NCBI GenBank assembly: GCA_037178625.1
Contig: JAWZXG010000039.1
Coordinates: forward strand, 51,628-115,627
Direction of reading: 5' to 3'
Source: Skeletonema tropicum
Lineage: Eukaryota > Bacillariophyta > Thalassiosirophyceae > Thalassiosirales > Thalassiosiraceae
DNA: 64,000 bases
Below, piece by piece: positions 20,289-50,751 of this stretch; position 1 is the stretch's first letter, and the number at the start of each line of letters is the position of its first letter. Below the pieces are notes generated by a model. The model had not been told where the DNA came from, made no database searches, and saw only the letters and a program-made list of their open reading frames with translations. The translations under genes were made by a program, and so were the position numbers.

Positions 20289-22714
20289 ATGCCTCGAGAG
20301 GGCAGTAGCGAAACGTCCACATCCATCATGACAGAAGAGCGAGATACTGAAGCTGGATTTGCAGCTCCCCAGTCTATTGCAACGGGCAGGCTTTCTGAGA
20401 AGTCGGGGCTTTTCCTTCGCCCGAACGCAGCTGCAGCGGCAGGAGGGAAAGGAGATGCATGGAACGAAGATCCTACCTCAAAGATGGCCTCCGCAGCCAC
20501 TGCCGTGGCTCTGGACGACGATGATGACGAAAAAGAGGATGACAACGATCCCATCACCCTACCAGAGTCCACTCACACCTTTCTCTTCACCGAGCCCGTC
20601 AACTCTACTTCATTCTGCTGGGCCTTCATCATCGCCGCAATGTCCATTTTCTGCTTAATACTCGCCCTCCTAGACAACCCATGGGGCGATTTCAAAAATG
20701 TCCTCCCGGCCAATGTAAAGACAACCGTCAAAGTTGCTCAATACTGCTCCGTCTTCATTGCATTGTTAATGGAAGAGGAGATCCCAACAGCGTTGTATTT
20801 ACTGAGGAGAATGCCAAAGAAGTACTTTAATAGCAAATTCCCAGAGTTGAAGTATAGCAAGTTTGTGTGTTCGTGTGTCCTTCGTGTTGTTAGTGGGTAT
20901 TTGTTTTTGCTCAATGTGCTACTGATTCTGGTGCAGGCGAGTGACGTCCTTGACATATTCTACGATGTGTTGGCACTCCAATTCCTACAACAACTCGATG
21001 ATATCGCGTTCAGTCTATCCCGTATGAGTGTCCTGTCGAAGGGTATGAAAGATGCGACGAACTCCAAATACTTTCAGATTGAGTTTCACAAGTCGAAATT
21101 TGGACGGGGTAGGAAATTGAGTATCTTTCTGAAGGGTTTGTATTTCTTTAATTTGTTTGGATTGTTGGCGGCTTTGATCGTTGTCACTCAAAGACAAGAA
21201 GCGGGATTTTATACATGCAATTCGATTACGGTCAAAATGCCGGATAAGTTGTGGGAGGATTGCATCGTTAACTGGCCTGATGGTGGGTTTGAGGAGGGGA
21301 TGATCCTTAATTATCCATACTTCAATGGAGTGTTCCGACAAGTAGAAGAAAGACATGATAGGAGACCAGTGTACGTTGAGCAGAAAAAGTTTGATGGTAC
21401 TCCCTTTGATACGGAATCTCCAGCGGAAGGATTCAGGGTCAAGTCGGGTGCAAAATTCATGTATTGTGAGAGCTTGAAGGCATGGGTTTTCACCCATGAA
21501 TATATCCGCAAGTCAAAACATGATGATCCTAATTGTCCATGGTTACTTCGCAGCGAGGAGACCGATGTATACGATATTGAGGAGTTTGAAGGTTCTTGGC
21601 AGATATGGGTAAGTCACTTACTTTCTTGGATGTTATGTTGCATTGTTGTGAGATCGTTGCGCTCAAATACTCACAAAACTCTTCGTTTCAGGCTGGTGTC
21701 ATCAGCGATACCAAGGTTGGGATCACTTGCAATGAGTGCAATGATGACGCTGATTGTAACTTGAATGGAGAGTGTCAGAGTGACGGCGCTTGCAAGTGTT
21801 ATGACGATGTCGATGGTATCTCCTTCTTAGGATCGCACTGTGAAGTTAGACTGAAAGATCAATGTAGGACTATTGTCGGTGGTAAGTAGAGATATCGTTA
21901 CCTTTTCCGCTTGTGTCTCACTTTGCTGAGCTAAAGCCTTAATCACCACACTCTTGTCTTGTAGAAGCAAATAATGAAACTTTTACTGTTATAGAGGAAC
22001 CATCGGCAAGTTCACAGGCTGTGATGCAAGAATACAACAGGCCGATATATCTATACACGGGAGGTGTTCCAGGTTTGGATCCGAATGATTTGATGTTGTT
22101 GCTCTACTCCGGAAACAGGTAAGTACGAATTTCATTCAGCAACGCATCTATTGATAAAATGTTGGAGCTCGTGGTGTCTGTGTGTTTAGACTTTGTTGGT
22201 GAATTCGATTTCATCTGGGTAACTCATTTTGTTCTCTACTTCTCTGCAGATGGTTTGGAACCTACTATCAAGGCGGTCAATACATTTTGGATGAAGGGTA
22301 TGAACATATTGCATCCTTTGCCTTTTCTAACTATCAGTAAGTCACTTTCCTGAATATTTGTTGAATCATCTCGTCGGCCCTGGATCTCTCTCACCCTGGG
22401 CCCGGCCACCTCTCTCATCTAGTTCCTTCTGGGACAAAGCGTACAAAACGGATACTGTCTTCGTGAGTGATGTAAGTACTGCAGACACTCCAGTCGGCGT
22501 GGATTTCCACTGGGTCGTAGAAAGAGGCGAGCAGTTTGGACCTTTCGGATTCTTGTATCCATTGAATAACGTGACTGGGAGAGGGTACTTTCGCTGCAGC
22601 GACCCGAAGTCAAATTCCACTTCAACATCAAATGCAGGTAGACAGTTAGTGAATGAAGGAGGCTTCTTTGAGAAGTATCCGCACCTTCTCGGGCGCAACA
22701 TGAAGAAACCGTAA
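20289..22714 (+). CDS. Multi-membrane protein with EGF-like segment, five exons
   Basis: Exons are 20289-21608, 21692-21881, 21965-22118, 22250-22336 and 22423-22714; all joins keep frame and use GT-AG. The N-terminus is cytosol-like and acidic. Hydrophobic helices follow at about residues 110-135 and 145-165, at 210-235 (VVSGYLFLLNVLLILVQ) and near 290 (FNLFGLLAALIVV). A long, probably extracellular region contains a Cys-rich EGF-like segment in exon 2 (CNECNDDADCNLNGEC then CKCYDD). The last exons carry conserved aromatic motifs. This resembles an uncharacterised, diatom-expanded family; no enzymatic motif was seen. An in-frame ATG-less extension and an upstream ORF from 20205 leave the start somewhat open. 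Its 3' end lies 31 bp from the convergent ATPase gene. Confidence 0.72.
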
Positions 22715-22745
22715 TTGAAGAGTCGAAGTAAAAGCATAGAAGTTA

Positions 22746-25700
22746 TTAGGGATGTGTTATCTCATTCATCTGTCTGATGCAGAAGTCACGCTTCATCGAA
22801 CTTTCCCACTCGTCGTAGCATAGCTTTGCTTGGTGGAAGAAGTTCATCGCATGCTCAAGCTTATCATTCCTCTTACATACAATGAAATGCCGCGTATTCA
22901 CATGCCAGGCCTTGCTCATGTACAAACTTCGAAGCACGCGCTGCCATGATAGCAGCCCCGTAAGCGGCTTCAGCTTCGTCGATCTTACCTTCGTAGGAGT
23001 GCATCTCTGCTTGTACCAAAAATTTCTTATTTCTGTAGTTCCATTTTGACAATTCTTCTGCTTCTCTCAAAATTGTGAGTGCATCCTTTGATATTTGCCT
23101 GAGCTTCGCCGTCTTGATTAGTTGGCCCTTTCTTGATAGTTTAAATGAGTTCAAGCAATAATAAAATATCGCTAATAAACGCTGATGCCCACCACCCTGT
23201 CTCATTTCCAGCAACTTCTCAAAGTAGTGATGACATCGTTCGTTATGACCCAGCCAAAATGATTGATAAGCTTGATAGTAATTTGATAGAATTGTACGCC
23301 GAAGACCGTAGACTTGTTCAGTCGCCTCTCTCCTCTCCCCTTCATCAATAGCGACACCAGTATTGATCCCCATCAGAGTCAAAATTGTTTGCCTGTAGGT
23401 CGAGAGGTATGCTTTCGATACAGTATTGCGATGGTGCCCTACAATCGACAGATACCCATCAGTCTCACGAAGAAGGTCTGAAAGTCTTTTGCCTCCAATA
23501 ATAGACAATCTAATGTGTTGGTCTGCGTTGAAGAAGGCGGATAGAGTTTCTCCATTGGCAATGCCGAGTTCAAACCCCTTGGCAGCACTCTCGGCAACTT
23601 TTTGAACTGGAGAGCAATATTGCTGAACATAGCTGTAAACATGGACCACATTTGACTTTACTTCCGAGTATTCAAAATGTTCATCCAGCATTGATATGGC
23701 TAACTTGCCAATTTTACAACTGAATCGCACAGAAGATAATGAGGGAGCATCGGCACAACGACCGAAAGCAAACTGGATGAAGCCCACTAATGAATGTTTA
23801 CACAAACCATTCTCCAGGGTAAGCTTCGCAATTCGGAGAGAAATAAAAGGCGTCACCTATAAAAATAACAAATGTTAGCTGACATACCAAACTACAATAC
23901 ATTCCAATGATCTTGGAGAAGAAGACAGCACTCACCTCAGGTCTCTTGAACCAGGTAATCTGTGCCATAAAGGCGAGAAACTTAACAACAGTCTGCATGG
24001 ATTTATCCATCTCGTTCATTGCAAGCAATCTATCTTTGGACAGATCACTCAAGAGCGTGGTGGTTTCATGTATAAACTTTTTGCTTTGCTCTGGTGTAAC
24101 GTAGTCCGGAATTTCTTCGCCAAGTTGAGTCAAGACATCTAGACAAGTCGCATAAGCTTCCTCTCCACGTTCCTGCGAATGATGGATGAACGCAACAAGG
24201 GAGTACGCATCGAGTTTATCCTCAATGCAAGTCGCTTCTTTTAGAATAATATTGAGCACAGCTTGCGATTTGTCAGTGTCGCCAGTTGAATATGCTGCCT
24301 TTGCTGAAGCAATATTTAGTTGAAGGCTGAGTTCATAGTTGCTTTCCCAGTGGTCAGCAGGAAGCATTTGTGATGCTAGGCTGAAGTAGTAGGATGCTGT
24401 TTCGTAATCAGATCTGTTCATTGCAATTATACCTGCTTTGTAATTCAAAGACGACACTTCAATACACACGGAACTGCTGCTTTGCTTCAGTGAAACAAGA
24501 TTTCGATTTAGCTGACAAACAATTGTGAGAACAGTAGCATCATCAAGGTCATCTCCCTTCGAGGCGTTTATCAACGCCATCCCTAGCTTGCTGTGAAATC
24601 TAGAAGATATTATCAAATGTATGTAAATGATGAGCTGCACTTGAATTCATCTTCAACAAACATGATACACATCCTAATAAACTCACTCATGTTTTTCACC
24701 GTCGGGGACCAGACTGTACGCCGCTTCTCTGACCTTGTCATGAGCAAATAAGTAACAGGGTGGTTCTCCTGTCATTGAGATAAATCCACTTGATCGTGCG
24801 TCTTCTATTCCAACCATAATACCAGCATACTGATTCGTGGAGTTAAGATAAGTGATGATGTTTTCATTGACTTTTATGCCAAAGCAGGATAGAACTTTCA
24901 GAACCGTCTGCACTTCACTTGTCAGCCCATTCATCTTGCTCGATAGGAGATACAGGACGTTATCAGTGGTGTTCTCTAACTCAATTTTTTCTTCATCCCA
25001 CTCCCATGAACCTTGGCGTAGACTGTGGCGAAGTAGGCCGCGATCGACTAATGAGCGCAAAAATTCTATGCAAAAGAATGGATCTGAAAGAGGAGAAGCA
25101 CGAGTGAGTCATAGTTGCATCATACACAAATCTTTGCATCATCAACCATGACTTACTGCCTTGAGTCTTCTCATGTATGATCATGGATAAGCGCCACGTA
25201 GTTCGTGGAAAGGCGCATAGCGCGTCAGATATAAGTGTGTTAACATCTTCAATCTTCATACCATCTAGAAGCAGCTTCTGTGTTGATACATTGCTCGTTT
25301 CCAGGTCTTTCATGAGACCAAAGATGGCATGTTCTGGTGATACCTCATTACTTCTGTAGCTACCGACGAAGAAGCAGCGTGCATCAGTCTTATCAGAGAG
25401 AATATCATGGATAACACCCAATACTGCGCTGTCAGACCACTTTGATGTGCAGAGGAATGGATTAAGTGAGCGAGAGCAGGGTATTATCATACATGAAAAA
25501 ATTTGACCAGTGGAAAAAAGTCACTCACCTGTAAATCATCCAGAAATAACATGACTGGATTTGATTTGCTTGATACCACTCTCATGAATTGACGCAGGAT
25601 GAAGCAGACGCTTTGAAAGTTCATTCGATTCCCACCCTGTTCTCGCGCTTCCTTCATTTGCCCTTGTGGGATAAGGCTGTACACATTTGGAAGCAGCCTT

Positions 25701-30274: not shown

Positions 30275-33200
30275 TCATCGTCGATTCAGAGAGTACATCC
30301 GCAAATTCCTTTGTTGATCTTTCTTCTCAGTCAAAAGTTGTACAATATCTCTCGTGCGGAGATCACGCACTGGTGTATCATCTATTGCCACAAGGACGTC
30401 TGATGGGAACACCCAACCCGAGAAGGGGCTAGAGTCAGAAACACTGCTCACCATTGTATTGCCCTCGTATTCTACGAAAGTTAGTCCAATCTTGCCAGGC
30501 GGAGCAGAGACTACTCGGTGATAAATATCGTCGTGTCGCAATTCTTCTTGGCTGCGGGTGTGATTGGTTTGAGGTGTAAATAATGTCGACGGGCTCCACG
30601 AAGAGGAATTCGCACTGATACTCTTGTTAGAACTCAACGGGTGGTATAAATCTGACAACGACTGGGGGGCCTTTCGGCGCGATAGCAATCCTCCAAAGGC
30701 ACCACTTAATGAACCCATTATACCGCTTGACTGCGGAGGGCTCTTGCTGTTATCTTCACTAACACTTGATCCAACGCTTAGATCGTCGCCCAATGATGGG
30801 GGAGGTACGCTCGGCATTCTATTCCTATCCGGTGTCTTCATTTCTGAAAAAGCTGAATACGATCCATCAGCCTGAGATCGAAATAGATTCTTTGCAGTTT
30901 GAGATGTTCTATTTGAGATCTGCGCAGTGACTGCAGTGCTTATTGACTCGGTATGGCTCGCAGTCCTAACAATATCTGGAGCTGTACGACCCAAGAATTG
31001 CCTAGCAGAGAAAGGCGCAATATTAGAATCTTCTGCCTCACCACTACCACTGCCGCTGTTGACAGCTGCTCCGCTCTGAGCTGCTTGATATGCCATTAGA
31101 TGGTGTTTTCTCCCTCCTGGTTTAGATCGATGTATTGATTCTCCCGATGCACGATCTACATGACGATTGCTTTTGATATCGGTAGAGCCTTTGACTGATT
31201 GCGATATCGACACAGCCATGTCGTAAGTAGTCTGGCGATGTGCACGAGAGGTTACGTGGACGTGGATATCTTTCCTTAACAACAGCAGCGGTAAGACATG
31301 CATTATAAAGCCATCTCTGATTTGATGATCCAATCCAGATAACTTCAAAGAAGGAGCATTGTCAGAACTTTCTCCGTTCAAAATGCGCTCCATCCACTTA
31401 ATCAGCGCAGATTGAGTGTTAGAATCATCAGTCCACTTGGACAAAATGGCGTCGATGATTGGTGATTTAAGCCCGTGGTCTGGTGGAGGAGGCAACGGTT
31501 CAACCAAATCACTCCACTCAGTCGTAAAATTCTCCCCATCAATCATTCGAACATTGACCATCCTCTCATCAGAAGATACCTCCGCAGCAACACTGTTTGA
31601 TACATTATTTTCATCATTGGAACTCTCTGCAGTGCTGGGTTCAGGTGCACTTTTGCTGCTCTCTTTCACACGCAATGACTCAATGAGAGCTAGTCGGTAC
31701 TCTTCCAGTTCTTTCTCCAGTCGAGGATCTTCAAGGGATATTGAGTATGGGTTGTTACTTCGCGCTTCTTCTTCCTCAGCCAGTGATGAAGATCCAACGG
31801 ATATATTTTCAATGCCTTTTGCTATCTGTATAATCATATCTTCCGTCCCTTCTATTGTGGTAGATGCATCTATAGCTTCAATCTCTGATTTGAAAGGCTC
31901 CTTCTTATCGCGACATGTCTCACTATCGCTCTCTAGAGCGGCAATTTTATTGTTTGCTTTCTCCAGTGCTGCTTTGAGAAAGATGATCTCCTTCCTATTC
32001 TCCAAATTCATATCTGCTTCAATTCGCTTCTCAAATCTGATATAAGATTCATCGTGAGAGTCGCAGTGCTTTACGGTGGTGGGAAATGGGGATGTAAGAT
32101 TTAGTGAGTTCTCGCCATCTGCCGCGGAGTCATCAGAAGATGAATTCGACAGTATCGATTTGTTGAGAGTCAGTTCCGGTATCTCTTGTTCCCGTGGTAG
32201 ACTTTTTAACCTTCCAATTTCAGCACGGCATTTCGAAAGTTCGCTGTTGAGACGATTGATTTCTAGATCGGTTGATAATGTTCGTTCCGCAGTCACAAGG
32301 TTTTCTTCTGTGACAGGCATGGGTACATAGTTTGCAGTGCTAGGTATAATCCCGATGCTCTCAGCTTCCTCAATCGACTCTAACCACCTCTTTGCTAGAA
32401 GTGTGGATTGCTTCATCTGGATGGCATACTCATGTGATCGTACGAGTAGATCAATAGCAGCACATTGTGCTTGATTGTCAAAGTTGGGTTCATGATTACT
32501 ACTTTCTGAATGATCATCATTCTCAGCGCCAACACCTCGTTTGATCGAGTTAGCAATTGTTTTCATCTTTTCCAAACAAGATGGGCAGTTATCGTGCCTC
32601 ATGCTAGACGTCTCTACGACTGGTGCATTACCATGGTCTGATAGACACCTTTCACAGTATAGCGACGGAATATGCAAAGCCTTTTCGTCTTCTTCAACGT
32701 GCGAAGATTGCATAACAATGGATTGTAGAAAAGTAATGGCATCTTTACGATCTGTTTCCGCTTTGCTATGTCTCCTTGATGATGGTGAAGGATCAAATGA
32801 AGATGAAAGGCGAATTGCGTCATAGCCTGTGGTGGCTGGAACTTGTATTGCTGAATGTTTATTGTCCATGACTTGACGATGACGAATGACTTTGGGAGTT
32901 CGTATCGTTCCGCCCCCTGACATCGCTGGATACCATTTGGGTCTAAAAGCACTCTTTTTCATCGGCGATTGTTTTGATGGCTTCTCCGATATGTTTTTGG
33001 CCACAGTTGAATCAGATGAATTACGCTTTGGTGTTCTAATCTCAGCAGGTGATCCGTCATCTATGCTAGCAAACGATGCCACTCCCGAAAGGCCATATTT
33101 ATGAGTTGGCTGTCGTACACCACCATCTTCTCTTGACTTGAGCTTATCTGGCATGATTAGAAAATTGGAATCATCGACTGTTGTATCTTCAAATGAGAAA

Positions 33201-34957
33201 CACTGCTGTGCAACTTTTAGACCACTTGCGACAACGTTTTCAGTCTTTGCGTAGGAGGAATGGAGCCTGTTTGGTGTCAGTGCCGATAGATGTGAAGGCA
33301 ACGGGGGAAGTGATTTGGCCACGTTCTGAGTTTTTCTTCGTAATGCTGCTCTGATAGGCGATTCGCCGTGGTTGTTAGTTGCTGACTTGATGTTGTTGAC
33401 GTCACCATCAGTTTGTACACTGTCTGATACATCGACAATATTATCAACTTTTATCTTCGATGCTTCTGGCGATTCTTCATGGATGTTACGTGCTGTTTTG
33501 ATGCTGTTGACGTCACCACCAGTTTGTACATTGTCAGATACATCGACAATATTATCAACTTCTGTCTTTGATTCGGCAGCATGCTCTTCCTCGCTTCTTA
33601 GCGCTACTTCTGCATTGCTCTCTATAGATTCACTCACTGTCGGATTGTCCTGCAGTGGAACGGTGTATAATATTGGTCTATCATCTTCATCATCACGAAT
33701 CTCGTCTGCATCGCTATCTGACCTCATATCCATTTCAGCTATTTCTTCCACATCTTGCATCATACGTCTCCTTACAGCAAGCAATTTACTTTCGTCACAT
33801 CCAAAAGAACCAATAGTAGTTCCCTCATTCTCACCAACGAGACTGCCCATTATTGAGACGGTAGATCCAATTGCCGAGTGACTGTGTTCACTATCATTGC
33901 TGTCCTTGCTTAAACTTTGTTTGATATTGCGTCCATTGCTGTATAAACTTTGTGACCGATTGGCGCTGTTATCATATTGGAACTCAAATCTTTTAAGTGA
34001 TTCGAACGTTATGGTGGGGACGAATTCAGCGCTATCGTCACAAGTGAAAGGTTTGTCATTGATTGAGTGATCTCTCTCCACTATTGGAACATCGTCAGAT
34101 TCACCATCATCATCATCATCACCAATGCGCTCTATCTCCCCTTCTTTCATATTTTGGTGATTATTTTCTTCGGTAACATCATCATTATTTGTACATTCTT
34201 TTGCTGCTCGATTTTCTTCGGCGATATCATCATTTGTACACTCTTTTGCTGTTTCATCGCTCGTAGCAGCCGATTGAGTAGCAACATTCAATGGTGGTTG
34301 CTTCATACTAATTTCGTCTGCAGTAGAATTTGTCTCAATATTATCACTTTCATGTGCATCTTCTACCATGGCAGCGTAACTCTCATTTCCATCCTCTTCA
34401 ATAAACTGCTTAAACTCCTGTACCGCCCTTTGATCCCTCTGCTGTCCATTTACATTATTCTGCGCACTGCTCGTAGTATTCATTTGCTGCGTAGAGGAAT
34501 AACTGAAACTAGCCGTCGTAACAACATTATGGTTGCTTTTGGCCGCCGCTGAAGTCCTGTCCGTGGCTGAAGGCGATTTTGTTGTAATTACTCGCCGCCC
34601 CCTATTTCGGAACATTCCCGTCGGATCCAAATTGGCAGATCTAGATGAAATATTCGGCTTTGGAATGTGCTGCTGCTGCTGTTGCATGGATGAATTCTGT
34701 TTGTCAAATGATTGAGTACGAATTCGAGAACTTGCAGTTCCTTTCAAGTAAGACGAAACTCGTTTCTGACCGCCATTACTTCCTACCACCACCATGGGCT
34801 CCTCATCCTGCTTCTCCGGTTGCTGCATTGGTGGGCCGTCCATTGTTATCTGTACTGCAGCCGCCTCACTGTAGAGTGAACACACATCATTCAATTTAAT
34901 GCCATGGTCACGACGAAATTTTGCGGTGTGCGAACAAAGTCGAAGAACCAACAACAT
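30275..34957 (-). CDS. Large coiled-coil protein with C-terminal PDZ-like domain (1560 aa)
   Basis: Single-exon frame. The first about 650 residues are Ser/Asp/Glu/Asn-rich and disordered-looking, and include two tandem copies of a 38-residue unit built around VDNIVDVSD.VQT.GDVN (about residues 455-540). Middle regions carry Cys pairs (CERCLSDHG, CPSCLEK near 790-815) and heptad-like coiled coils (about 900-1060). The last about 85 residues look like a PDZ domain: IGLTFVEYEGNTMVSSVSD, a GWVFPSDVLVAIDD turn, and a final helix and strand. PDZ domains bind C-terminal peptides, so a scaffold role is inferred. The ATG at 34957 gives the longest protein; the ATG at 34843 (MDGPPMQQ) is an equally good start. 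Its 5' third is duplicated at 43452-44951. Confidence 0.75.
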   Translation of the reverse strand: MLLVLRLCSHTAKFRRDHGIKLNDVCSLYSEAAAVQITMDGPPMQQPEKQDEEPMVVVGSNGGQKRVSSYLKGTASSRIRTQSFDKQNSSMQQQQQHIPKPNISSRSANLDPTGMFRNRGRRVITTKSPSATDRTSAAAKSNHNVVTTASFSYSSTQQMNTTSSAQNNVNGQQRDQRAVQEFKQFIEEDGNESYAAMVEDAHESDNIETNSTADEISMKQPPLNVATQSAATSDETAKECTNDDIAEENRAAKECTNNDDVTEENNHQNMKEGEIERIGDDDDDGESDDVPIVERDHSINDKPFTCDDSAEFVPTITFESLKRFEFQYDNSANRSQSLYSNGRNIKQSLSKDSNDSEHSHSAIGSTVSIMGSLVGENEGTTIGSFGCDESKLLAVRRRMMQDVEEIAEMDMRSDSDADEIRDDEDDRPILYTVPLQDNPTVSESIESNAEVALRSEEEHAAESKTEVDNIVDVSDNVQTGGDVNSIKTARNIHEESPEASKIKVDNIVDVSDSVQTDGDVNNIKSATNNHGESPIRAALRRKTQNVAKSLPPLPSHLSALTPNRLHSSYAKTENVVASGLKVAQQCFSFEDTTVDDSNFLIMPDKLKSREDGGVRQPTHKYGLSGVASFASIDDGSPAEIRTPKRNSSDSTVAKNISEKPSKQSPMKKSAFRPKWYPAMSGGGTIRTPKVIRHRQVMDNKHSAIQVPATTGYDAIRLSSSFDPSPSSRRHSKAETDRKDAITFLQSIVMQSSHVEEDEKALHIPSLYCERCLSDHGNAPVVETSSMRHDNCPSCLEKMKTIANSIKRGVGAENDDHSESSNHEPNFDNQAQCAAIDLLVRSHEYAIQMKQSTLLAKRWLESIEEAESIGIIPSTANYVPMPVTEENLVTAERTLSTDLEINRLNSELSKCRAEIGRLKSLPREQEIPELTLNKSILSNSSSDDSAADGENSLNLTSPFPTTVKHCDSHDESYIRFEKRIEADMNLENRKEIIFLKAALEKANNKIAALESDSETCRDKKEPFKSEIEAIDASTTIEGTEDMIIQIAKGIENISVGSSSLAEEEEARSNNPYSISLEDPRLEKELEEYRLALIESLRVKESSKSAPEPSTAESSNDENNVSNSVAAEVSSDERMVNVRMIDGENFTTEWSDLVEPLPPPPDHGLKSPIIDAILSKWTDDSNTQSALIKWMERILNGESSDNAPSLKLSGLDHQIRDGFIMHVLPLLLLRKDIHVHVTSRAHRQTTYDMAVSISQSVKGSTDIKSNRHVDRASGESIHRSKPGGRKHHLMAYQAAQSGAAVNSGSGSGEAEDSNIAPFSARQFLGRTAPDIVRTASHTESISTAVTAQISNRTSQTAKNLFRSQADGSYSAFSEMKTPDRNRMPSVPPPSLGDDLSVGSSVSEDNSKSPPQSSGIMGSLSGAFGGLLSRRKAPQSLSDLYHPLSSNKSISANSSSWSPSTLFTPQTNHTRSQEELRHDDIYHRVVSAPPGKIGLTFVEYEGNTMVSSVSDSSPFSGWVFPSDVLVAIDDTPVRDLRTRDIVQLLTEKKDQQRNLRMYSLNRR

Positions 34958-35111
34958 GCCGAAACGAAGAAAGGAGGAGAGATGAGAAAGGACACATCAA
35001 AGGCACGAGAAAAGAACTCAGCAAGGTCGTCCTGTAACATCTACTATCTTATCTTTATCTCTCTACTTGTTTCTAATCTCTACTTGTTTCTAATATTCTA
35101 GCCTAACTCAT

Positions 35112-38100
35112 TCAAAATGCCTGCCAAGTACCACCACAGCTTCCTTCACAGTCAGATTGCAAAAAGTGACATCCAGGATTAGTCATTGGGTCCTGGTTGC
35201 TGCAATCCGATCCTCCCCAGGAGCAGCATCCAGTCTGCTGAATAGGAACAGTAGTCATGAGACCTGCACACATGTTGCAATTATTGGCACTCTCATTGCA
35301 CCAACCGCTGTTGTTACATTGCTGATAGCCTGTGTTACGATCACCGCAGCAGTACGTTCCTCCAGAAGTAGGTGGAGAAGTTGGATTGGGTGTTGCTGCA
35401 TTGGTGGGTGGTGTAGTTGGTGCATTGATGGGTGGTGGAGTTGGTGCATTCGATGGAGGAGCAGTGGTTGGCTTGGAAGTTGGCTGGGATGTGCTTGTTC
35501 CAGGTGTGGGCTTCGACGAGGGAAGGGCCGTAGGAGGTGCAGTTGGACTCAAAGTAGTAGGTGGGGGTGTTGGAGGTGACGCTGTAAACAGATTGTTCGA
35601 GCAGGTCTCTGGCATATTAAGCTCAGTGGCGTAGGGATGCTCACAATGTAGCTGGCTTAACTCGTCAGGACAGCTCACTTCCTCATAGGCAACCTCAGGA
35701 TTGTCCCACTTGAGATCATAAAAGTTATTGCAACCTGCCTTCAAGACTGGATCGTTGAAGGCATCACAGTTGCAATTCTCATTCGGATTTTGACTATCAA
35801 TCATCCATCGTCCGCACGATGCGAAGCCAGTAGCCTCCTCTGGCTCTCGTTCATTGCAGGTATTGCTTTGGGAGAACTCAGTGACGTCAAATCCAGGGGC
35901 AGCAATGTCAAAATGAGCCTTGTTACCTGAGCACGCAGCATTACTTGGAGGGCAAAAGTTGGTTCCCTTCAATACCAGCGTTGTCGACGAAGCAGTGATC
36001 GGAGAGTAACCAGTAACCTTCCAGCATTTACCGCAACCAGAACTCATCCAATTACCTCCTCCCAATGCTTCAGAAATAGCAGCTGCTCCATAATAGGTCG
36101 CCCCGAAAGGATTACCAGCGGGGGCAACGAACATGGCGTTGGAATGGCAATGAACTGGTTCATTGTCTCCAAGGCCAGTTGGAACGAAAGAGCAGCCGCA
36201 GGAACCTCCTGAACAATCCCAGTAACGTGTCGTTGTGGCGATATTTCCTCCCGTGGGTGGGGTAGGAGGTGGAGTAGGTGGTGTCGGAGGAGAAGGCGGA
36301 GGAGGATTGACCGGAGGCTGAGTTGGATTAGGAGTCACTTGTGATGTTGGGCTAGCTGTTCCATCGCTGCGGCAGAATTGAGGCGCGTAGTTTGCATCAT
36401 TGGTAAACACAATAGCCCAGAGATTGTTCTTCTCGACCCAAATCTCATTGCCATCTTCCTGAGTTACCCAGTATTCGCCATCGATCCCATTCACACTACA
36501 ACCAGATAAAGTGAATGATGCCTGGGCTCCTGAAAGGTTCTCAACAGTCATGCATTGCTTGAGGTCTGCGTAGTAAGGTTCTACTTCCAACTCCAAAGAA
36601 AACTGATACAGACCTGGATCTTGCCATTGTACGTTATGCGCGGGTGTCTTCAAATTACTGAGGCTTGGACCATCCTCAGAGACATGAACGTAGTTGTAAG
36701 AACCCTGGAAAGCAGAGTAAGTTGAGGGGACGTTGAAGACATCGATGAGGTTGCAGTCTCTGACGGAAATAGTGACCGAAGCAAAATTAGACGCGTCTCC
36801 GGAGTTATCAATTGCTCTGAATGTAAAGGTATCTGTACCCAAGGCACCCGTGTTTGGTGTATACACGAGGTTTGGGGCATCACCAGATAGAACTCCGAAG
36901 CTTGGGCTAGTTACTTCCCATGACACGATGGTACCGTCATAATCACTTGCTGAGAGAGTCAAAGAGACGGATGTATCCATCTGAACCTTAATGTTGCTCA
37001 AGGATTGCGCAGTGGGAGGGCAGTTGCCGTCACACCCACCAAGGACTGGGACTGCCTTGTTCTCGATATACCACGCCACCCAAGCTAATGGAGCGTTCCA
37101 GTTGATAGTATTCTCCTTTGAGCCCCACGCATGAGGTGCTGTTCCCGGAGCAGCATAGGACTTGGCAGCGGCAACACCTCCAGGCGTTTCGTAATCATTG
37201 ATGAGCTCATTATTGGGCCCACCACTAAGCCATCCCTTCGGCCAGAAAGCATCTTGTCCAATAGTCCAAGCCCATCTATCATGCGTATCCGTCTCTGCCT
37301 TCTCACCTGTGGGAGATACAATGAAAAAATGTTAACACAGATGCAATCAAAAATGAGAACAAAAAATGCATATTGTGCTGCCTTCTCACCATAACCAGTT
37401 ACATAACTGATATCCATTGCATTAGTTCCCATGATGTAGTCCATCGAACGAAGAATGTACTTCTGATATGAAACATCGTTGGTAATTTCGTACGCGTAGG
37501 CAAGAGCAATCATCCTGTTCATGATGAAGCTATTGGAGCCCCATGGATACTTCGAGTACTCGGAAGGGAATGCAAGATTTGAGGGATAGCCTTCTCCGTC
37601 AATTGCAGCCTTAATCTGATCAGCAAAACTGATGATATTTGCTTCAATTGATGCTTTCTCCGCAGAAGACAAATCATTGCTCACGGCGTAAAGAGAGAGT
37701 GTTCCGGCAGCAGCGACAGTTGCCCAATCCCATTGACCCATTTCTTTGAAGTGGGAGGATTGCGTCATAGCGGACTTGTACGTCTGTACAGCAGAATCTC
37801 CGAGGGCGTGAGCAGTTAGATACATCTCACAAGCAGCCGCGTATCGATCATCACCGATGGCGCCATCAGGATAGTCACCACCACCGAGGGCTGGACCTGG
37901 AGAAGCCTCGCCTGCATTGTATGTCTTGCTTGTTCCATCCGCTCGTCCCCAAGCATCAATTGCAGCGTTCCAAAGGACATTCACATGAGCTTGGTTATCT
38001 CCCGGTGCAGAGGAATACATTCTTGCAAGCTGTGCATTCACCCTTGCGACAGCATAGGTAGCTGGAGTCGAAGATCCCATTGCAGACCTAGTCCCCATGG

Positions 38101-40196
38101 CATTGTGTGCATTTTCAGCGTCAATAGTGATCGTAAAAGCTGACCAGGCATGGTTGTGCGCCTTATGTGAAGCAAGGCCCCCATCAGACGGAAGCATTCC
38201 TCGTACGAATCTTGAGCCATAATTCACTTCATCGAGCACATCGGGGATACTATTACCGCTCTCAGGAATATTCAATGTCCCATCAACAAAGGCTTCGGGG
38301 AACAACTCGTGGAGGTTGAGCAAAGTCCAGGCAGAGATGGCGTGATTCACCGTGTAGACTCCGAAATCGCCAGCATCAGCCCAGGATCCCAAAAGGTCAA
38401 AGTCATCACAGCCTTCACACCATCCCGGGTAAGGGGGTACAAAACCATCTCCAGGGTGGAGTGCATCTCGGGCGTATCTCTCATCCATCAAGTGCTCAGC
38501 AAGGATCGCATCAGGTCCCATACGATGAAAGTAAAAGTAGTTCATTGCCTCGTGTGGAAGATCTGCATAAAGGCTTGGAGCGATGGCAAATTCGAAACTG
38601 GCCCCAATTCCATTGACTACCAGCTTGTATGTGCCGAGATCAGTCAAACCTGAAAAATCGACTTGGTGGACCTCGTCGCCAGATGCATCATCCAATCCAA
38701 ATGGAGTACTATCTCCAGCAAGAATGACTGACCCCATAGAGTCTTGAACTTGCCATTCAAGTGGACTGGTAGACGAGTCGACAATAACACCAATCTTGGA
38801 TGCATAGCGGAGATAACCAACTTGATTCACTCTTACTTTGTCAGATTGCACAGCTGGGAATGCAGATCCAATCGGAGATGAAGTAGTGGGTGGAGGCACT
38901 GGAGTAGGCTGGCCAGTTGGCTTAGATGTTGGATTGGGAGTAGGTGATGGAGGAGTCGGGACATTTGTAGGACCAAATGTTGGAGGATTGGTTGGGACAG
39001 GAACGGTTGGAGGCGGCGTAGGTGTATTTGTCACAGGAGGAGTCGGCACATTGGTCGGAGGTGGTGTAGGATCCTCATCGGAGCAAGTGTCGAGGAGGCA
39101 TGTCCCCCAACCAGCTGCGTTGACTTGGGTACACTTCAAACCGTCACAACAGCCACTCCAATCGTAGGTACAGTCAGCCCATTCGAGGAGACAAGATGGC
39201 GTTGTTACTGGCGGAGAAGTTGGGTTGAGCGAAGCGGTGGGACTGCTTGTTGTGGGTGCTGGAGTAGGCTTGGGAGACACAGTCGGAGATGACGTACCAG
39301 ATTGGGCAATGCTAATCTCCGCACAGTTGTAGAACCTTTCAGGCCAAGTAGTACCACGAGTACCATCGTTAGGGTAGGGAGGGGTACAAGTGGAAACTCC
39401 AGGAGTCCAATAACTCGATGGAAGTTCAGGATGGGCAGCGAAATACTCAGCGTAGCCAGGGGGTGAACAAGAGTTGGCTGTGATGTAGAGCCATTGTAGA
39501 AGAATCTCGTCGCCGTACATTCCTTCGGGGAGCTTAAAGACAAACTCGAACGATTTGATTCCTCCACCTTGTCCTCCAGCGTACATTCCTAAAAGATAAT
39601 GATAATATGAATCACATCAGTGAGTACACATTCATTCTATATACGCACCAGAAGACAAACAAATCATATCTCTTCTTACCTCTCTCGGGATAATTATCAT
39701 CAGGCGGCATGGCAGGAGTGCCAGCCGGTCCCTCACGGACGTTATCCCTCACAAAAGTGAGTGCACTACCCGGTGCCTGAAAATCAGCCTCGGTACAATC
39801 GTTTCCCTTGTTACATGCCCTAATCTCCATGTGACCATTGTGATGAGTATCCAAATAACTCCTCACAATAATCTCATCTCCTTCAGAGTAAAAACCCTCA
39901 CTCACCCAAGGCATTGGACTACCAGTCTTGTCGAGCCAGGATTCGGGATTGTAGGAACGATCACCAAACTTTCCACAAATCTCGTTGTTGAGGTTGAGAC
40001 AATGGTGACAATACTCGGCGGGAGGGCAGCCGACACCAGAGCATGTCGGCCCATCTTGATGGGAGAGGAAGTTTCTTGAACGAGGGGACTCCAAAAACCC
40101 ATGGCCCGTCACGAAGGAAGGGGCCGAAAGGAAGGCAATGGAGGCAAGTGCAATGATTGCACTCTTGGATGCGATATTGGCGGATGCCAAAAACAT
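35112..40196 (-). CDS. Modular cellulase: LPMO-like + GH9 + GH45-like, copy 1 (1636 aa, three exons)
   Basis: Exons 40196-39680, 39588-37390 and 37306-35112 join in frame across GT-AG introns. Residues 1-31 are a signal peptide; mature His32 plus the HHNGHM histidine fit the copper brace of lytic polysaccharide monooxygenases (domain to about 268). Pro/Thr linkers flank a six-to-eight-Cys module (304-343). An Ig-like domain (about 420-510) precedes a GH9 domain with WADAGDFG (Asp577, Asp580), SGGPN near 934, and Glu970 in the terminal motif. A cadherin-like module (about 1000-1090) and an orphan module (about 1090-1217) follow. A GH45-like domain then shows TRYWDC (Asp1269) and HFDIAAPG (Asp1372). 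A linker and Cys-rich C-terminus (1557-1636) end the protein. Expected role: extracellular oxidative and hydrolytic attack on cellulose or related beta-glucans. Confidence 0.9.
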
Positions 40197-40762
40197 GATG
40201 CGTTGAATGATAGATAGAAGTAAGAAGCTGTTGTGCGTCTGTAAAGTTTGATCTAAAACTTATTATGTGAAGTAGTGAAGGCAGAGGCAGATGCGATCTT
40301 ACGATCAGATGAGATCGTTCGGAGTCGATGTCCAAGGGTCATCAATCGTAGAGCCAGTCGGATTGGCAAGGATGTTCATGTTCCCACATGATGTTCACGG
40401 ATTGAATTCAGAGATGTGACAACTTCGTCAAAATCCGCACAAAATGACCAGGCATCGCATTGGTCGTGGTTCTATCTTGTTCCTGTACGGCATGCAAATA
40501 ATATCCAACGAGTGAATCACTTCAATTATCTACCCGAATGCAATTTTCTCCCTCCAAAGCAAAGTTTCAGAGTCAAATTCAATACTCCCCTCTCACCTTA
40601 ACCCTAATTGCCTTAAAATGTACAGTCCAAGGATACCCCCGTACCAAACTCTCTAGCCATGTACCCAGTCCGAAATTGTAACCCCTGCGTAAGGAGTTTT
40701 ATTTACGTTCACGTACGGTTCACGAAAAGCTTTCTGCGGAGGATAAACCTTATTCCATCCTA
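40197..40762. promoter_or_regulatory. 5' flank of cellulase copy 1, 566 bp
   Basis: Shared with copy 2 (50190-50751), apart from small indels and several base changes around 40300-40320. The shared tail contains ACCTTAACCCTAATTGCC and ends at the duplication edge. No promoter motif was assigned. Confidence 0.5.
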
Positions 40763-43451: not shown

Positions 43452-44951
43452 TCAGGACGGCCGCGATCCTATCGCTGTGTTACGTGCTGTTTTGATGCTG
43501 TTGACGTCACCACCAGTTTGTACATTGTCAGATACATCGACAATATTATCAACTTCTGTCTTTGACTCGGCAGCATGCTCTTCCTCGCTTCTTAGCGCTA
43601 CTTCTGCATTGCTCTCTATAGATTCACTCACTGTCGGATTATCATGCAGTGGAACGGTGTCTAATATTGGTCTATCATCTTCATCATCACGAATCTCGTC
43701 TGCATCGCTATCTGACCTCATATCCATTTCAGCTATTTCTTCCACATCTTGCATCATACGCCTCCTTACAGCAAGCAATTTACTTTCGTCACATCCAAAA
43801 GAACCAATAGTAGTTCCCTCATTCTCACCAACGAGACTGCCCATTATTGAGACGGTAGATCCAATTGCCGAGTGACTGTGTTCACTATCATTGCTGTCCT
43901 TGCTTAAACTTTGTTTGATATTGCGTCCATTGCTGTATAAACTTTGTGACCGATTGGCGTTGTTATCATATTGGAACTCAAATCTTTTAAGTGATTCGAA
44001 CGTTATGGTGGGGACGAATTGAGCGCTATCGTCACAAGTGAAAGGTTTGTCATTGATTGAGTGATCTCTCTCCACTATTGGAACATCGTCAGATTCACCA
44101 TCATCATCATCATCACCAATGCGCTCTATCTCCCCTTCTTTCATATTTTGGTGATTATTTTCTTCGGTAACATCATCATTATTTGTACATTCTTTTGCTG
44201 CTCGATTTTCTTCGGCGATATCATCATTTGTACACTCTTTTGCTGTTTCATCGCTCGTAGCAGCCGATTGAGTAGCAACATTCAATGGTGGTTGCTTCAT
44301 ACTAATTTCGTCTGCAGTAGAATTTGTCTCAATATTATCACTTTCATGTGCATCTTCTACCATGGCAGCGTAACTCTCATTTCCATCCTCTTCAATAAAC
44401 TGCTTAAACTCCTGTACCGCCCTTTGATCCCTCTGCTGTCCATTTACATTATTCTGCGCACTGCTCGTAGTATTCATTTGCTGCGTAGAGGAATAACTGA
44501 AACTAGCCGTCGTAACAACATTATGGTTGCTTTTGGCCGCCGCTGAAGTCCTGTCCGTGGCTGAAGGCGATTTTGTTGTAATTACTCGCCGCCCCCTATT
44601 TCGGAACATTCCCGTCGGATCCAAATTGGCAGATCTAGATGAAATATTCGGCTTTGGAATGTGCTGCTGCTGCTGTTGCATGGATGAATTCTGTTTGTCA
44701 AATGATTGAGTACGAATTCGAGAACTTGCAGTTCCTTTCAAGTAAGACGAAACTCGTTTCTGACCGCCATTACTTCCTACCACCACCATGGGCTCCTCAT
44801 CCTGCTTCTCCGGTTGCTGCATTGGTGGGCCGTCCATTGTTATCTGTACTGCAGCCGCCTCACTGTAGAGTGAACACACATCATTCAATTTAATGCCATG
44901 GTCACGACGAAATTTTGCGGTGTGCGAACAAAGTCGAAGAACCAACAACAT
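43452..44951 (-). pseudogene. 5' fragment of the PDZ-protein gene, duplicated (499 aa, chimeric end)
   Basis: The first about 490 codons duplicate the 30275-34957 gene almost perfectly (noticed changes: Y to D, Q to H, E to Q, S to N). The duplication breaks off inside the first 38-residue repeat unit. The frame then runs nine codons into filler sequence (ending GSRPS) and stops. The coiled coils, Cys pairs and PDZ domain are missing. The N-terminal disordered region may still be transcribed, because the promoter side was duplicated with it. Confidence 0.88.
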
Positions 44952-47900
44952 GCCGAAACGAAGAAAGGAGGAGAGATGAGAAAGGACACATCAAAGGCAC
45001 GAGAAAAGAACTCAGCAAGGTCGTCCTGTAACATCTACTATCTTATCTTTATCTCTCTACTTGTTTCTAATCTCTACTTGTTTCTAATATTCTAGCCTAA
45101 CTCATTCAAAATGCCTGCCAAGTACCACCACAGCTTCCTTCACAGTCAGATTGCAAAAAGTGACATCCAGGATTAGTCATTGGGTCCTGGTTGCTGCAAT
45201 CCGATCCTCCCCAGGAGCAGCATCCAGTCTGCTGAATAGGAACAGTAGTCATGAGACCTGCACACATGTTGCAATTATTGGCACTCTCATTGCACCAACC
45301 GCTGTTGTTACATTGCTGATAGCCTGTGTTACGATCACCGCAGCAGTACGTTCCTCCAGAAGTAGGTGGAGAAGTTGGATTGGGTGTTGCTGCATTGGTG
45401 GGTGGTGTAGTTGGTGCATTGATGGGTGGTGGAGTTGGTGCATTCGATGGAGGAGCAGTGGTTGGCTTGGAAGTTGGCTGGGATGTGCTTGTTCCAGGTG
45501 TGGGCTTCGACGAGGGAAGGGCCGTAGGAGGTGCAGTTGGACTCAAAGTAGTAGGTGGGGGTGTTGGAGGTGACGCTGTAAACAGATTGTTCGAGCAGGT
45601 CTCTGGCATATTAAGCTCAGTGGCGTAGGGATGCTCACAATGTAGCTGGCTTAACTCGTCAGGACAGCTCACTTCCTCATAGGCAACCTCAGGATTGTCC
45701 CACTTGAGATCATAAAAGTTATTGCAACCTGCCTTCAAGACTGGATCGTTGAAGGCATCACAGTTGCAATTCTCATTCGGATTTTGACTATCAATCATCC
45801 ATCGTCCGCACGATGCGAAGCCAGTAGCCTCCTCTGGCTCTCGTTCATTGCAGGTATTGCTTTGGGAGAACTCAGTGACGTCAAATCCAGGGGCAGCAAT
45901 GTCAAAATGAGCCTTGTTACCTGAGCACGCAGCATTACTTGGAGGGCAAAAGTTGGTTCCCTTCAATACCAGCGTTGTCGACGAAGCAGTGATCGGAGAG
46001 TAACCAGTAACCTTCCAGCATTTACCGCAACCAGAACTCATCCAATTACCTCCTCCCAATGCTTCAGAAATAGCAGCTGCTCCATAATAGGTCGCCCCGA
46101 AAGGATTACCAGCGGGGGCAACGAACATGGCGTTGGAATGGCAATGAACTGGTTCATTGTCTCCAAGGCCAGTTGGTACGAAAGAGCAGCCGCAGGAACC
46201 TCCTGAACAATCCCAGTAACGTGTCGTTGTGGCGATATTTCCTCCCGTGGGTGGGGTAGGAGGTGGAGTAGGTGGTGTCGGAGGAGAAGGCGGAGGAGGA
46301 TTGACCGGAGGCTGAGTTGGATTAGGAGTCACTTGTGATGTTGGGCTAGCTGTTCCATCGCTGCGGCAGAATTGAGGCGCGTAGTTTGCATCATTGGTAA
46401 ACACAATAGCCCAGAGATTGTTCTTCTCGACCCAAATCTCATTGCCATCTTCCTGAGTTACCCAGTATTCGCCATCGATCCCATTCACACTACAACCAGA
46501 TAAAGTGAATGATGCCTGGGCTCCTGAAAGATTCTCAACAGTCATGCATTGCTTGAGGTCTGCGTAGTAAGGTTCTACTTCCAACTCCAAAGAAAACTGA
46601 TACAGACCTGGATCTTGCCATTGTACGTTATGCGCGGGTGTCTTCAAATTACTGAGGCTTGGACCATCCTCAGAGACATGAACGTAGTTGTAAGAACCCT
46701 GGAAAGCAGAGTAAGTTGAGGGGACGTTGAAGACATCGATGAGGTTGCAGTCTCTGACGGAAATAGTGACCGAAGCAAAATTAGACGCGTCTCCGGAGTT
46801 ATCAATTGCTCTGAATGTAAAGGTATCTGTACCCAAGGCACCCGTGTTTGGTGTATACACGAGGTTTGGGGCATCACCAGATAGAACTCCGAAGCTTGGG
46901 CTAGTTACTTCCCATGACACGATGGTACCGTCATAATCACTTGCTGAGAGAGTCAAAGAGACGGATGTATCCATCTGAACCTTAATGTTGCTCAAGGATT
47001 GCGCAGTGGGAGGGCAGTTGCCGTCACACCCACCAAGGACTGGGACTGCCTTGTTCTCGATATACCACGCCACCCAAGCTAATGGAGCGTTCCAGTTGAT
47101 AGTATTCTCCTTTGAGCCCCACGCATGAGGTGCTGTTCCCGGAGCAGCATAGGACTTGGCAGCGGCAACACCTCCAGGCGTTTCGTAATCATTGATGAGC
47201 TCATTATTGGGCCCACCACTAAGCCATCCCTTCGGCCAGAAAGCATCTTGTCCAATAGTCCAAGCCCATCTATCATGCGTATCCGTCTCTGCCTTCTCAC
47301 CTGTGGGAGATACAATGAAAAAATGTTAACACAGATGCAATCAAAAATGAGAACAAAAAATGCATATTGTGCTGCCTTCTCACCATAACCAGTTACATAA
47401 CTGATATCCATTGCATTAGTTCCCATGATGTAGTCCATCGAACGAAGAATGTACTTCTGATATGAAACATCGTTGGTAATTTCGTACGCGTAGGCAAGAG
47501 CAATCATCCTGTTCATGATGAAGCTATTGGAGCCACATGGATACTTCGAGTACTCGGAAGGGAATGCAAGATTTGAGGGATAGCCTTCTCCGTCAATTGC
47601 AGCCTTAATCTGATCAGCAAAACTGATGATATTTGCTTCAATTGATGCTTTCTCCGCAGAAGACAAATCATTGCTCACGGCGTAAAGAGAGAGTGTTCCG
47701 GCAGCAGCGACAGTTGCCCAATCCCATTGACCCATTTCTTTGAAGTGGGAGGATTGCGTCATAGCGGACTTGTACGTCTGTACAGCAGAATCTCCGAGGG
47801 CGTGAGCAGTTAGATACATCTCACAAGCAGCCGCGTATCGATCATCACCGATGGCGCCATCAGGATAGTCACCACCACCGAGGGCTGGACCTGGAGAAGC

Positions 47901-50751
47901 CTCGCCTGCATTGTATGTCTTGCTTGTTCCATCCGCTCGTCCCCAAGCATCAATTGCAGCGTTCCAAAGGACATTCACATGAGCTTGGTTATCTCCCGGT
48001 GCAGAGGAATACATTCTTGCAAGCTGTGCATTCACCCTTGCGACAGCATAGGTAGCTGGAGTCGAAGATCCCATTGCAGACCTAGTCCCCATGGCATTGT
48101 GTGCATTTTCAGCGTCAATAGTGATCGTAAAAGCTGACCAGGCATGGTTGTGCGCCTTATGTGAAGCAAGGCCCCCATCAGACGGAAGCATTCCTCGTAC
48201 GAATCTTGAGCCATAATTCACTTCATCGAGCACATCGGGGATACTATTACCGCTCTCAGGAATATTCAATGTCCCATCAACAAAGGCTTCGGGGAACAAC
48301 TCGTGGAGGTTGAGCAAAGTCCAGGCAGAGATGGCGTGATTCACCGTGTAGACTCCGAAATCGCCAGCATCAGCCCAGGATCCCAAAAGGTCAAAGTCAT
48401 CACAGCCTTCACACCATCCCGGGTAAGGGGGTACAAAACCATCTCCAGGGTGGAGTGCATCTCGGGCGTATCTCTCATCCATCAAGTGCTCAGCAAGGAT
48501 CGCATCAGGTCCCATACGATGAAAGTAAAAGTAGTTCATTGCCTCGTGTGGAAGATCTGCATAAAGGCTTGGAGCGATGGCAAATTCGAAACTGGCCCCA
48601 ATTCCATTGACTACCAGCTTGTATGTGCCGAGATCAGTCAAACCTGAAAAATCGACTTGGTGGACCTCGTCGCCAGATGCATCATCCAATCCAAATGGAG
48701 TACTATCTCCAGCAAGAATGACTGACCCCATAGAGTCTTGAACTTGCCATTCAAGTGGACTGGTAGACGAGTCGACAATAACACCAATCTTGGATGCATA
48801 GCGAAGATAACCAACTTGATTCACTCTTACTTTGTCAGATTGCACAGCTGGGAATGCAGATCCAATCGGAGATGAAGTAGTGGGTGGAGGCACTGGAGTA
48901 GGCTGGCCAGTTGGCTTAGATGTTGGATTGGGAGTAGGTGATGGAGGAGTCGGGACATTTGTAGGACCAAATGTTGGAGGATTGGTTGGGACAGGAACGG
49001 TTGGAGGCGGCGTAGGTGTATTTGTCACAGGAGGAGTCGGCACATTGGTCGGAGGTGGTGTAGGATCCTCATCGGAGCAAGTGTCGAGGAGGCATGTCCC
49101 CCAACCAGCTGCGTTGACTTGGGTACACTTCAAACCGTCACAACAGCCACTCCAATCGTAGGTACAGTCAGCCCATTCGAGGAGACAAGATGGCGTTGTT
49201 ACTGGCGGAGAAGTTGGGTTGAGCGAAGCGGTGGGACTGCTTGTTGTGGGTGCTGGAGTAGGCTTGGGAGACACAGTCGGAGATGACGTACCAGATTGGG
49301 CAATGCTAATCTCCGCACAGTTGTAGAACCTTTCAGGCCAAGTAGTACCACGAGTACCATCGTTAGGGTAGGGAGGGGTACAAGTGGAAACTCCAGGAGT
49401 CCAATAACTCGATGGAAGTTCAGGATGGGCAGCGAAATACTCAGCGTAGCCAGGGGGTGAACAAGAGTTGGCTGTGATGTAGAGCCATTGTAGAAGAATC
49501 TCGTCGCCGTACATTCCTTCGGGGAGCTTAAAGACAAACTCGAACGATTTGATTCCTCCACCTTGTCCTCCAGCGTACATTCCTAAAAGATAATGATAAT
49601 ATGAATCACATCAGTGAGTACACATTCATTCTATATACGCACCAGAAGACAAACAAATCAATCTCTTCTTACCTCTCTCGGGATAATTATCATCAGGCGG
49701 CATGGCAGGAGTGCCAGCCGGTCCCTCACGGACGTTATCCCTCACAAAAGTGAGTGCACTACCCGGTGCCTGAAAATCAGCCTCGGTACAATCGTTTCCC
49801 TTGTTACATGCCCTAATCTCCATGTGACCATTGTGATGAGTATCCAAATAACTCCTCACAATAATCTCATCTCCTTCAGAGTAAAAACCCTCACTCACCC
49901 AAGGCATTGGACTACCAGTCTTGTCGAGCCAAGACTCGGGGTCGTAGGAACGACTACCAAACTTTCCACAAATGTCGTCGTTGAGGTTGAGACAATGGTG
50001 GCAATACTCGGCGGGAGGGCAGCCGACACCAGAGCATGTCGGCCCATCTTGATGGGAGAGGAAGTTTCTTGAACGAGGGGACTCCAAAAACCCATGGCCC
50101 GTCACGAAGGTAGGGGCCGAAAGGAAGGCAATGGAGGCAAGTGCAATGATTGCACTCTTGGATGCGATATTGGCGGATGCCAAAAACATGATGCGTTGAA
50201 TGATAGAAGTAAGAAGCTGTTGTGCGTCTGTAAAGTTTGATCTAAAACTTATTATGTGAAGTAGTGAAGGCAGAGGCAGATGCGATCTTACGATTAGGTG
50301 CGATCGTTCGGAGTCGATGTCCAAGGGTCATCAATCGTAGAGCCAGTCGGATTGGCAAGGATGTTCATGTTCCCACATGATGTTCACGGATTGAATTCAG
50401 AGATGTGACAACTTCGTCAAATTCCGCACAAAATGACCAGGCATTGGTCGTAGTTCTATCTTGTTCCGTATGCGTACGGCATGCAAATAATATCCAACGA
50501 GTGAATCACTTCAAATATCTACCCGAATGCAATTTTCTCCCTCCAAAGCAAAGTTTCAGAGTCAAATTCAATACTCCCTTCTCACCTTAACCCTAATTGC
50601 CTTAAAATGTACAGTCCAAGGATACCCCCATACCAAACTCTCTAGCCATGTACCCAGTCCGAAATTGTAACCCCTGCGTAAGGAGTTTTATTTACGTTCA
50701 CGTACGGTTCACGAAAAGCTTTCTGCGGAGGATAAACCTTATTCCATCCTA
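43478..50751. repeat. Segmental duplication, copy 2 (about 7.27 kb)
   Basis: Direct copy of 33484-40762. The left edge abuts transposon debris and the right edge leads into the NEMF promoter. A cluster of nine differences lies at 49932-50001, compared with 39939-40008, in the LPMO exon. Confidence 0.97.
45106..50189 (-). CDS. Modular cellulase: LPMO-like + GH9 + GH45-like, copy 2 (1636 aa, three exons)
   Basis: Exons 50189-49673, 49582-47384 and 47300-45106 mirror copy 1, with every splice site and frame kept. The same modules and all the catalytic residues named for copy 1 are present. Two differences stand out. First, Trp855 of the GH9 domain (YPWGSNS in copy 1) is Cys here, from a C-to-A change at 47535. 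Second, four of 17 residues differ in the LPMO domain (the N-D-D-I-C-G..G-S-R-S-Y-D stretch, against N-N-E-I-C-G..G-D-R-S-Y-N). A 4-bp deletion in the 5' UTR opens an in-frame upstream ATG at 50324, but the ATG at 50189 starts the signal peptide and is preferred. Possibly a diverging or partly impaired paralogue. Confidence 0.88.

Follow-up and report, generated by a model that had tools for sequence, protein, structure and literature searches.

The minus strand of a 64,000-nucleotide stretch of the Skeletonema tropicum genome (contig JAWZXG010000039.1, here C36; the whole stretch is called the window) carries a gene whose 1,636-residue product joins an AA15-like lytic polysaccharide monooxygenase (LPMO), a GH9 module and a GH45 module in one chain. 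We propose that this Thalassiosirales diatom probably secretes the protein as a multicatalytic enzyme that degrades polysaccharides, and that the gene was assembled stepwise. The earlier note on this DNA had claimed that splicing of two short introns gives one 1,636-residue frame, and the three joined minus-strand exons do translate as a stop-free frame of 1,636 codons. The frame is intact in three of three genomic copies, and both introns are GT..AG with identical borders in all three. Intron positions were set from the sequence by the earlier reader and by us, and the module boundaries are our choice. The features, in window coordinates and amino acids (aa), are as follows.

35112..40196, minus strand: whole coding region, exons 40196-39680, 39588-37390 and 37306-35112; 1,636 aa
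40104..40196, minus strand: predicted signal peptide, aa 1-31; cleavage would make His32 residue 1
39299..40103, minus strand: AA15-like LPMO, aa 32-269, containing intron 1; brace of His32 and His119, axial Phe258
39589..39679, minus strand: intron 1, GT..AG, phase 1, inside the LPMO module
39080..39205, minus strand: knottin-like Cys-rich module, aa 301-342, 7 Cys; PF10530 below cut-off; inhibitor cystine knot peptides in PDB
37041..38860, minus strand: CelD_N and GH9 catalytic module, aa 416-994, containing intron 2; Asp577, Asp580, His914, Glu970
37307..37389, minus strand: intron 2, GT..AG, inside the GH9 module; homologues continuous across the site
36762..37040, minus strand: Big_9 bacterial-type immunoglobulin (Ig) domain, aa 995-1087; Pfam 3e-09
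36372..36761, minus strand: module without a name, here 'Cmod', aa 1088-1217; common to the presumably bacterial GH9 proteins P0017-P0021
35586..36251, minus strand: GH45 module, aa 1258-1479; Asp1269, Asp1372
35115..35363, minus strand: C-terminal Cys-rich module with 12 Cys, aa 1554-1636; recurs among relatives
45106..50189, minus strand: second gene copy, open frame (1,636 aa) with Trp855Cys in GH9 among 6 residue differences

Linkers lie on both sides of the knottin-like module and on both sides of GH45, and the GH9 module includes an N-terminal Ig domain. Thus the two Cys-rich modules and Pro/Thr linkers that had been described are present, and in addition the chain holds the Big_9 Ig domain and Cmod (together aa 995-1217). 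The four linkers are 31-74 aa each, 70-75% Pro+Thr+Ser, and contain no Cys.

All three catalytic folds that had been predicted were found, GH9 by Pfam, and the LPMO and GH45 by family profiles and structure models. Pfam matches CelD_N, GH9 and Big_9; the GH9 profile (PF00759) scores 197.6 bits against a cut-off of 27.7 and aligns over positions 1-443 of 444, its final part lying beyond intron 2. The DAGD motif and the terminal Glu, both noted before, are represented by Asp577, Asp580 and Glu970, which align to PDB 1ut9 and are present in 113 of 113 rows of the GH9 alignment. The nearest solved chain by sequence to CelD_N-GH9 is 1rq5/1ut9, which we take to be the cellobiohydrolase CbhA of Clostridium thermocellum; the catalytic Asp and Glu positions align, and to our knowledge CbhA carries neither an LPMO nor a GH45 module.

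In single-sequence searches, Pfam matched neither an LPMO nor a GH45 family at E up to 1, and phmmer against the PDB gave LPMO matches at chance level only and a best GH45 E of 0.03. Family profiles and structure models place the N-terminal module in the AA15 fold. A histidine brace had been proposed at the predicted mature N-terminus, and its residues are all in place: the residues before His32 resemble a signal peptide, with V/G at −3/−1, and cleavage directly before this His, secretion of the protein and copper loading of the LPMO would be expected from these features. In the family alignment (25 of 38 proteins) the N-terminal His is found in 23 of 25 rows and the second brace His in all 25. 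Residue 25 of the structure model superposes on residue 1 of PDB 5msz, the Thermobia domestica enzyme TdAA15A, which shares the fold, the N-terminal His and the second brace His but has Tyr184 at the axial place. Here the axial residue is Phe258, as in 24 of the 25 family rows (the remaining row has a gap). Since axial Tyr is a trait of one characterised AA15 member and not part of the family definition, we call the module AA15-like.

Similarly, profiles and structure models assign the third module to GH45 (alignment of the window protein with 35 of 120 listed relatives, 148 found). Both of the predicted catalytic Asp residues are there, Asp1269 (RYWDC) and Asp1372 (HFD), aligned to 1l8f. The fold and both Asp residues are shared with fungal, springtail and mollusc GH45 endoglucanases (1l8f, 3eng, 5h4u, 5xbu, 1wc2) at 27-34% identity in structural alignments; we know of no such enzyme joined to an LPMO or to GH9. 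Expectation that all modules would be cellulose-active held in part: GH9 and GH45 are cellulase folds, whereas AA15 enzymes act on cellulose or chitin, and the LPMO may be active on either.

Is the fusion confined to this gene? Of 267 relatives found, 120 were listed, and the modules of 59 (P0002-P0060) were compared. P0002 (1,677 aa, 33 member sequences) is 88% identical over the whole query, holds all seven modules in order and is continuous across both intron sites. Its frame is uninterrupted in a contig of up to 6,258 bases, from which we conclude that it is probably a transcript assembly, the alternatives being an intronless gene or a spliced gene model. LPMO and GH9 matches occur together in 14 of the 59 proteins, the LPMO being partial in P0010 and P0013; GH45 follows in one of these 14 chains, P0002, while P0022 ends inside GH9. 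The chains of Thalassiosira minuscula (P0003, taxid 385413), Thalassiosira sp. AJA248-18 (P0004) and T. exigua (P0005) share the AA15-knottin-GH9-Ig-Cmod order of the window protein, with 59-62% identity in the LPMO and 76-80% in GH9, but unlike it they lack GH45. P0003 (MMETSP0739) and P0006 (mmetsp) come from transcriptome collections, and the AA15-GH9 chain is thus transcribed as one. The earlier suggestion of a diatom protein agrees with the named carriers of this form, which are Thalassiosira species and Cyclotella cryptica, all Thalassiosirales.

Other relatives combine these modules differently. P0034 is a public protein that joins an LPMO, GH45 and a GH18 chitinase, another chain of three catalytic modules, spanning cellulose and chitin families, and P0036, P0038 and P0056 (Asterionellopsis glacialis) join an LPMO to GH8 according to precomputed domains. 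Singly, LPMO or GH45 has a wider spread than the fusion. The shorter proteins P0165, P0166 and P0169 have a GH45-linker-Cys module order. GH45 relatives among the matches listed come, among others, from Cylindrotheca, from Fibrocapsa (a raphidophyte) and, in one record so labelled, from Alexandrium; of those with a name, Mediolabrus comicus is the best match (84%). A Cys module of the C-terminal type was found in 53 of 87 relatives of at least 300 aa, beside LPMO, GH8, GH9, GH18 or GH45, by an iterated profile that is loose and may drift; it may be an undescribed carbohydrate-binding module, and the knottin-like module is a possible binding module.

The origin of the central block can be read from a quick GH9 tree of the window protein and 112 of 120 rows (113 modules), from which P0022, P0034, P0036, P0037, P0038, P0056, P0074 and P0114 were dropped for short cover; the search length range leaves out GH9 proteins much shorter than 900 aa. 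All 16 diatom rows, some labelled as such by us from their module content, form one group (Shimodaira-Hasegawa-like approximate likelihood-ratio support, SH-aLRT, 98) beside P0017-P0021 (joint group 100), and the joint group is nested among rows with bacterial names. P0017-P0021 share Big_9 and Cmod in equal order, with Cmod 38-43% identical to that of the window protein. We regard these five proteins as presumably bacterial from the tree, the 1.1-Mb contig of P0017 and C-terminal repeats common to planctomycete genomes. A scan of genome contigs with P0019 gave 17 loci, with near-full GH9 in three Streptomyces and one Catellatospora (53-55%) and one short match in Fontibacillus; planctomycete matches were mostly C-terminal, at or beyond the end of Cmod. 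In seven of those genomes that were re-scanned GH9 was not found, the matches being mostly to the C-terminal Cys repeat with few to the Ig domain. Phycisphaerae, a first guess for the source of P0017-P0021, was dropped.

On the simplest reading, a bacterium donated the GH9-Ig-Cmod block in a single event, the direction being suggested by the tree. We propose that this probably bacterial block was taken into an AA15-knottin chain that ends in a Cys-rich module, and that later, in one sublineage, a diatom GH45 would have been inserted between Cmod and the C-terminal module. A second GH45 locus in this genome (C13:2389595-2390266) is 84% identical, has similar Cys modules on its flanks and is plausibly the source or sister of the inserted GH45; between the two, the ratio of nonsynonymous to synonymous substitution rates (dN/dS, NG86) is 0.11, with dS about 1. 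Two tandem 449-aa paralogues on C10 (L032, C10:875500-885400, at 1115-2550 and 5041-6476; DNA 93-94% identical) consist of signal peptide, LPMO, knottin and Cys module, the whole GH9-to-GH45 cassette being absent. Because the long order is present in other species, we consider loss of the cassette from these genes likelier than its gain by the long ones. Comparison of long and short genes gives dN/dS (NG86) of 0.14 for the LPMO and 0.08 for the Cys module (YN00 0.19). The short genes have an intron at the place equivalent to intron 1, where the homologue P0002 is joined without a gap. A 13-bp direct repeat (GGTGAGAAGGCAG) flanks intron 2 (window 37307-37390), a pattern compatible with a gain of this intron in the fairly recent past. 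GH9 in this genome is confined to this gene (6 matches at E up to 0.001, two per copy), and GH8 gave no match at that threshold, the GH8 fusions of relatives thus not being found here. As a separate observation, an open reading frame (ORF) of 1,311 aa on C9 (L071, C9:1260000-1268000, at 2336-6271) has an LPMO-like domain in which the N-terminal His is apparently replaced (STGGF), followed by repeat-like stretches; it is possibly a non-catalytic LPMO relative.

The second gene copy in the window results from a 7.28-kb tandem duplication (33484-40762 against 43478-50751, 99.4%). In it, Cys replaces Trp855 (window 47079-49580), which is Trp in 113 of 113 GH9 rows, and the copy is possibly a decaying duplicate. 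A third copy, on C13, encodes 1,628 aa, one linker lacking 24 bases. C13 also aligns with window 19000-23000 (98%) and with the gene flanks, and C36 therefore looks like the other haplotype of C13. The tandem duplication is on C36 while C13 has a single copy, which looks like a copy-number difference between the two apparent haplotypes, unless the assembly is wrong. The duplication also copied the 5' part of a neighbouring gene (30275-34957), giving a 499-aa ORF at 43452-44951.

How does the protein compare with known systems? AA15 includes members active on cellulose and others active on chitin and has been reported in Bacillariophyceae, where AA15-GH18 fusions were published by 2018 (PMC5823890); those carry a chitinase, whereas the AA15 module here is joined to two cellulase families. 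Likewise, Caldicellulosiruptor bescii CelA (GH9-CBM3c-CBM3b-CBM3b-GH48) combines two unlike cellulases and binding modules in one secreted chain (PMC6892212, PMC3865294). The window protein similarly has at least two cellulase modules in one chain, with secretion predicted from its signal peptide; CelA is bacterial and thermophilic, has GH48 in place of GH45 and has no LPMO. Fusions of AA15 with GH families in diatoms and multicatalytic cellulases in bacteria are both known kinds. A 2019 survey of 3,619 GH9 proteins records LPMO_10 as a partner domain once, a pairing shared with the window protein, and the available text does not mention GH45 for it (PMC6626019). For 218 fungal genomes, the portion available gives no other catalytic partner for GH45 and, in its table, none for GH9 (PMC5428031), and a review of filamentous microbes names no LPMO-GH9-GH45 chain in its GH45 and LPMO passages (PMC7410926). 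Open-licence literature, which leaves out most subscription journals, yielded no account of a protein that combines an LPMO with GH9 and GH45. The triple fusion had been presented as unexpected in a diatom and as without a known counterpart; no described counterpart was found, but it is not isolated, since AA15-knottin-GH9 chains exist in several species. Tara Oceans metatranscriptomes contain 1,232 diatom LPMO_10 sequences (PMC10134812), and diatom LPMO_10 genes are therefore expressed at sea. A carbohydrate-active enzyme survey exists for Nitzschia putrida (PMC9054022). Diatom heterotrophy on brown algal polysaccharides via horizontal gene transfer was reported in 2025, in a paper whose text mentions no cellulase, LPMO, GH9 or GH45 (PMC11960938); capture of polysaccharide enzymes by a diatom would therefore not be without precedent.

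We propose that the AA15-type copper LPMO would nick a crystalline beta-1,4-linked polymer oxidatively, that GH9 and GH45 (an endoglucanase fold), held nearby, would hydrolyse the opened chains, and that the Cys-rich modules, carried on Pro/Thr linkers, would keep the enzyme attached to its polymer. Activity, cellulose as the main substrate, synergy and biological role are predictions from sequence. Wall remodelling, mixotrophy and attack on debris, the roles suggested earlier, may each apply. It is barely credible that separate genes were wrongly joined by the assembly or the gene model: the placing of introns from sequence leaves room for such an error, but the three genomic copies lie on two contigs, public proteins of other species and sources have the identical order, and the GH9 profile continues to its end across intron 2. 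Similarly, we think it very unlikely that the third module, instead of being a GH45 hydrolase, loosens walls without hydrolysis in the manner of an expansin or loosenin. Expansins lack the GH45 catalytic base Asp and have an Ig-like binding domain directly behind the barrel. Here the Asp is present, the fold rank disfavours an expansin, and directly after the barrel comes a Pro/Thr linker (no search was aimed at the expansin Ig-like domain). Cutting of the chain in its linkers after secretion, releasing separate enzymes with the fusion serving mainly for equal supply, would agree with the length and composition of the four linkers and with a linker 4 that is 45 residues longer in P0002 while the modules are intact. 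Module order is nevertheless conserved across species, and intact, glycosylated cellulases commonly have linkers of this kind; we consider this explanation unlikely.

Thalassiosirales include makers of beta-chitin, and the enzyme may trim extracellular polymers that the cell itself makes (threads of beta-chitin, mucilage, material of the girdle or of auxospores). Chitin would then be the substrate of the LPMO and minor beta-1,4-glucans that of the hydrolases, and the protein would not serve feeding. In favour of such self-directed use are the chitin-active AA15 members and the diatom fusions with GH18 (PMC5823890), the LPMO, GH45 and GH18 of P0034, the distribution of the AA15-GH9 form, known here from Thalassiosirales, and six Chitin_synth_2 loci above cut-off in this genome, two with a stop inside the match; the profile also matches in 4 of 14 control bacteria and is therefore not specific. 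Chitin is thus a live alternative substrate for the LPMO. Against it, GH9 and GH45, two of the three catalytic modules, have cellulase folds, and Pfam found no GH18 in the window protein; we give it somewhat less than an even chance. The most far-reaching proposal, a nearly complete cellulase system of oxidative, GH9 and endo-acting GH45 parts in one secreted diatom polypeptide (bacterial GH9 capture, later GH45) used on outside cellulose such as detritus or the cellulosic plates of rival dinoflagellates, is doubtful. For a secreted multicatalytic enzyme in general, several points weigh the other way. Substrate and activity are predicted, in a family with chitin-active members; the axial LPMO residue differs from the Tyr of 5msz; in this organism the fusion is known from genome sequence; and P0002, the GH45-containing form, is only probably a transcript. 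Its being the one such form among 14 LPMO-GH9 chains means that the three-module set is not essential to the family. Furthermore, the linkers may be cut, in which case the modules might act apart, and the invariance of Trp855 suggests that GH9 in the second copy may be impaired.

Diatoms are photosynthetic algae with a shell of glass, and for such an alga an oxidative enzyme with two cellulase types in one chain is surprising. If active, the protein would offer a natural one-chain test of oxidative-hydrolytic synergy and would suggest that marine phytoplankton turn over cellulose or chitin. Moreover, one genome displays the likely building steps: GH9 capture, GH45 insertion, loss of the cassette from short paralogues, and two apparent haplotypes that differ in copy number.

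Elsewhere in the window, positions 8547-11027 encode a protein of the ferric reductase/NADPH-oxidase type, an enzyme type that can supply peroxide, though any link to the LPMO would be conjecture. A tandem ORF array occupies 11489-17599 (314-349 aa each, about 85-87% DNA identity over most of the array; no Pfam match in the two ORFs tested). Finally, a 220-bp element at about 19771-19990 recurs across the genome at 73-98% identity (39 of 46 matches listed).

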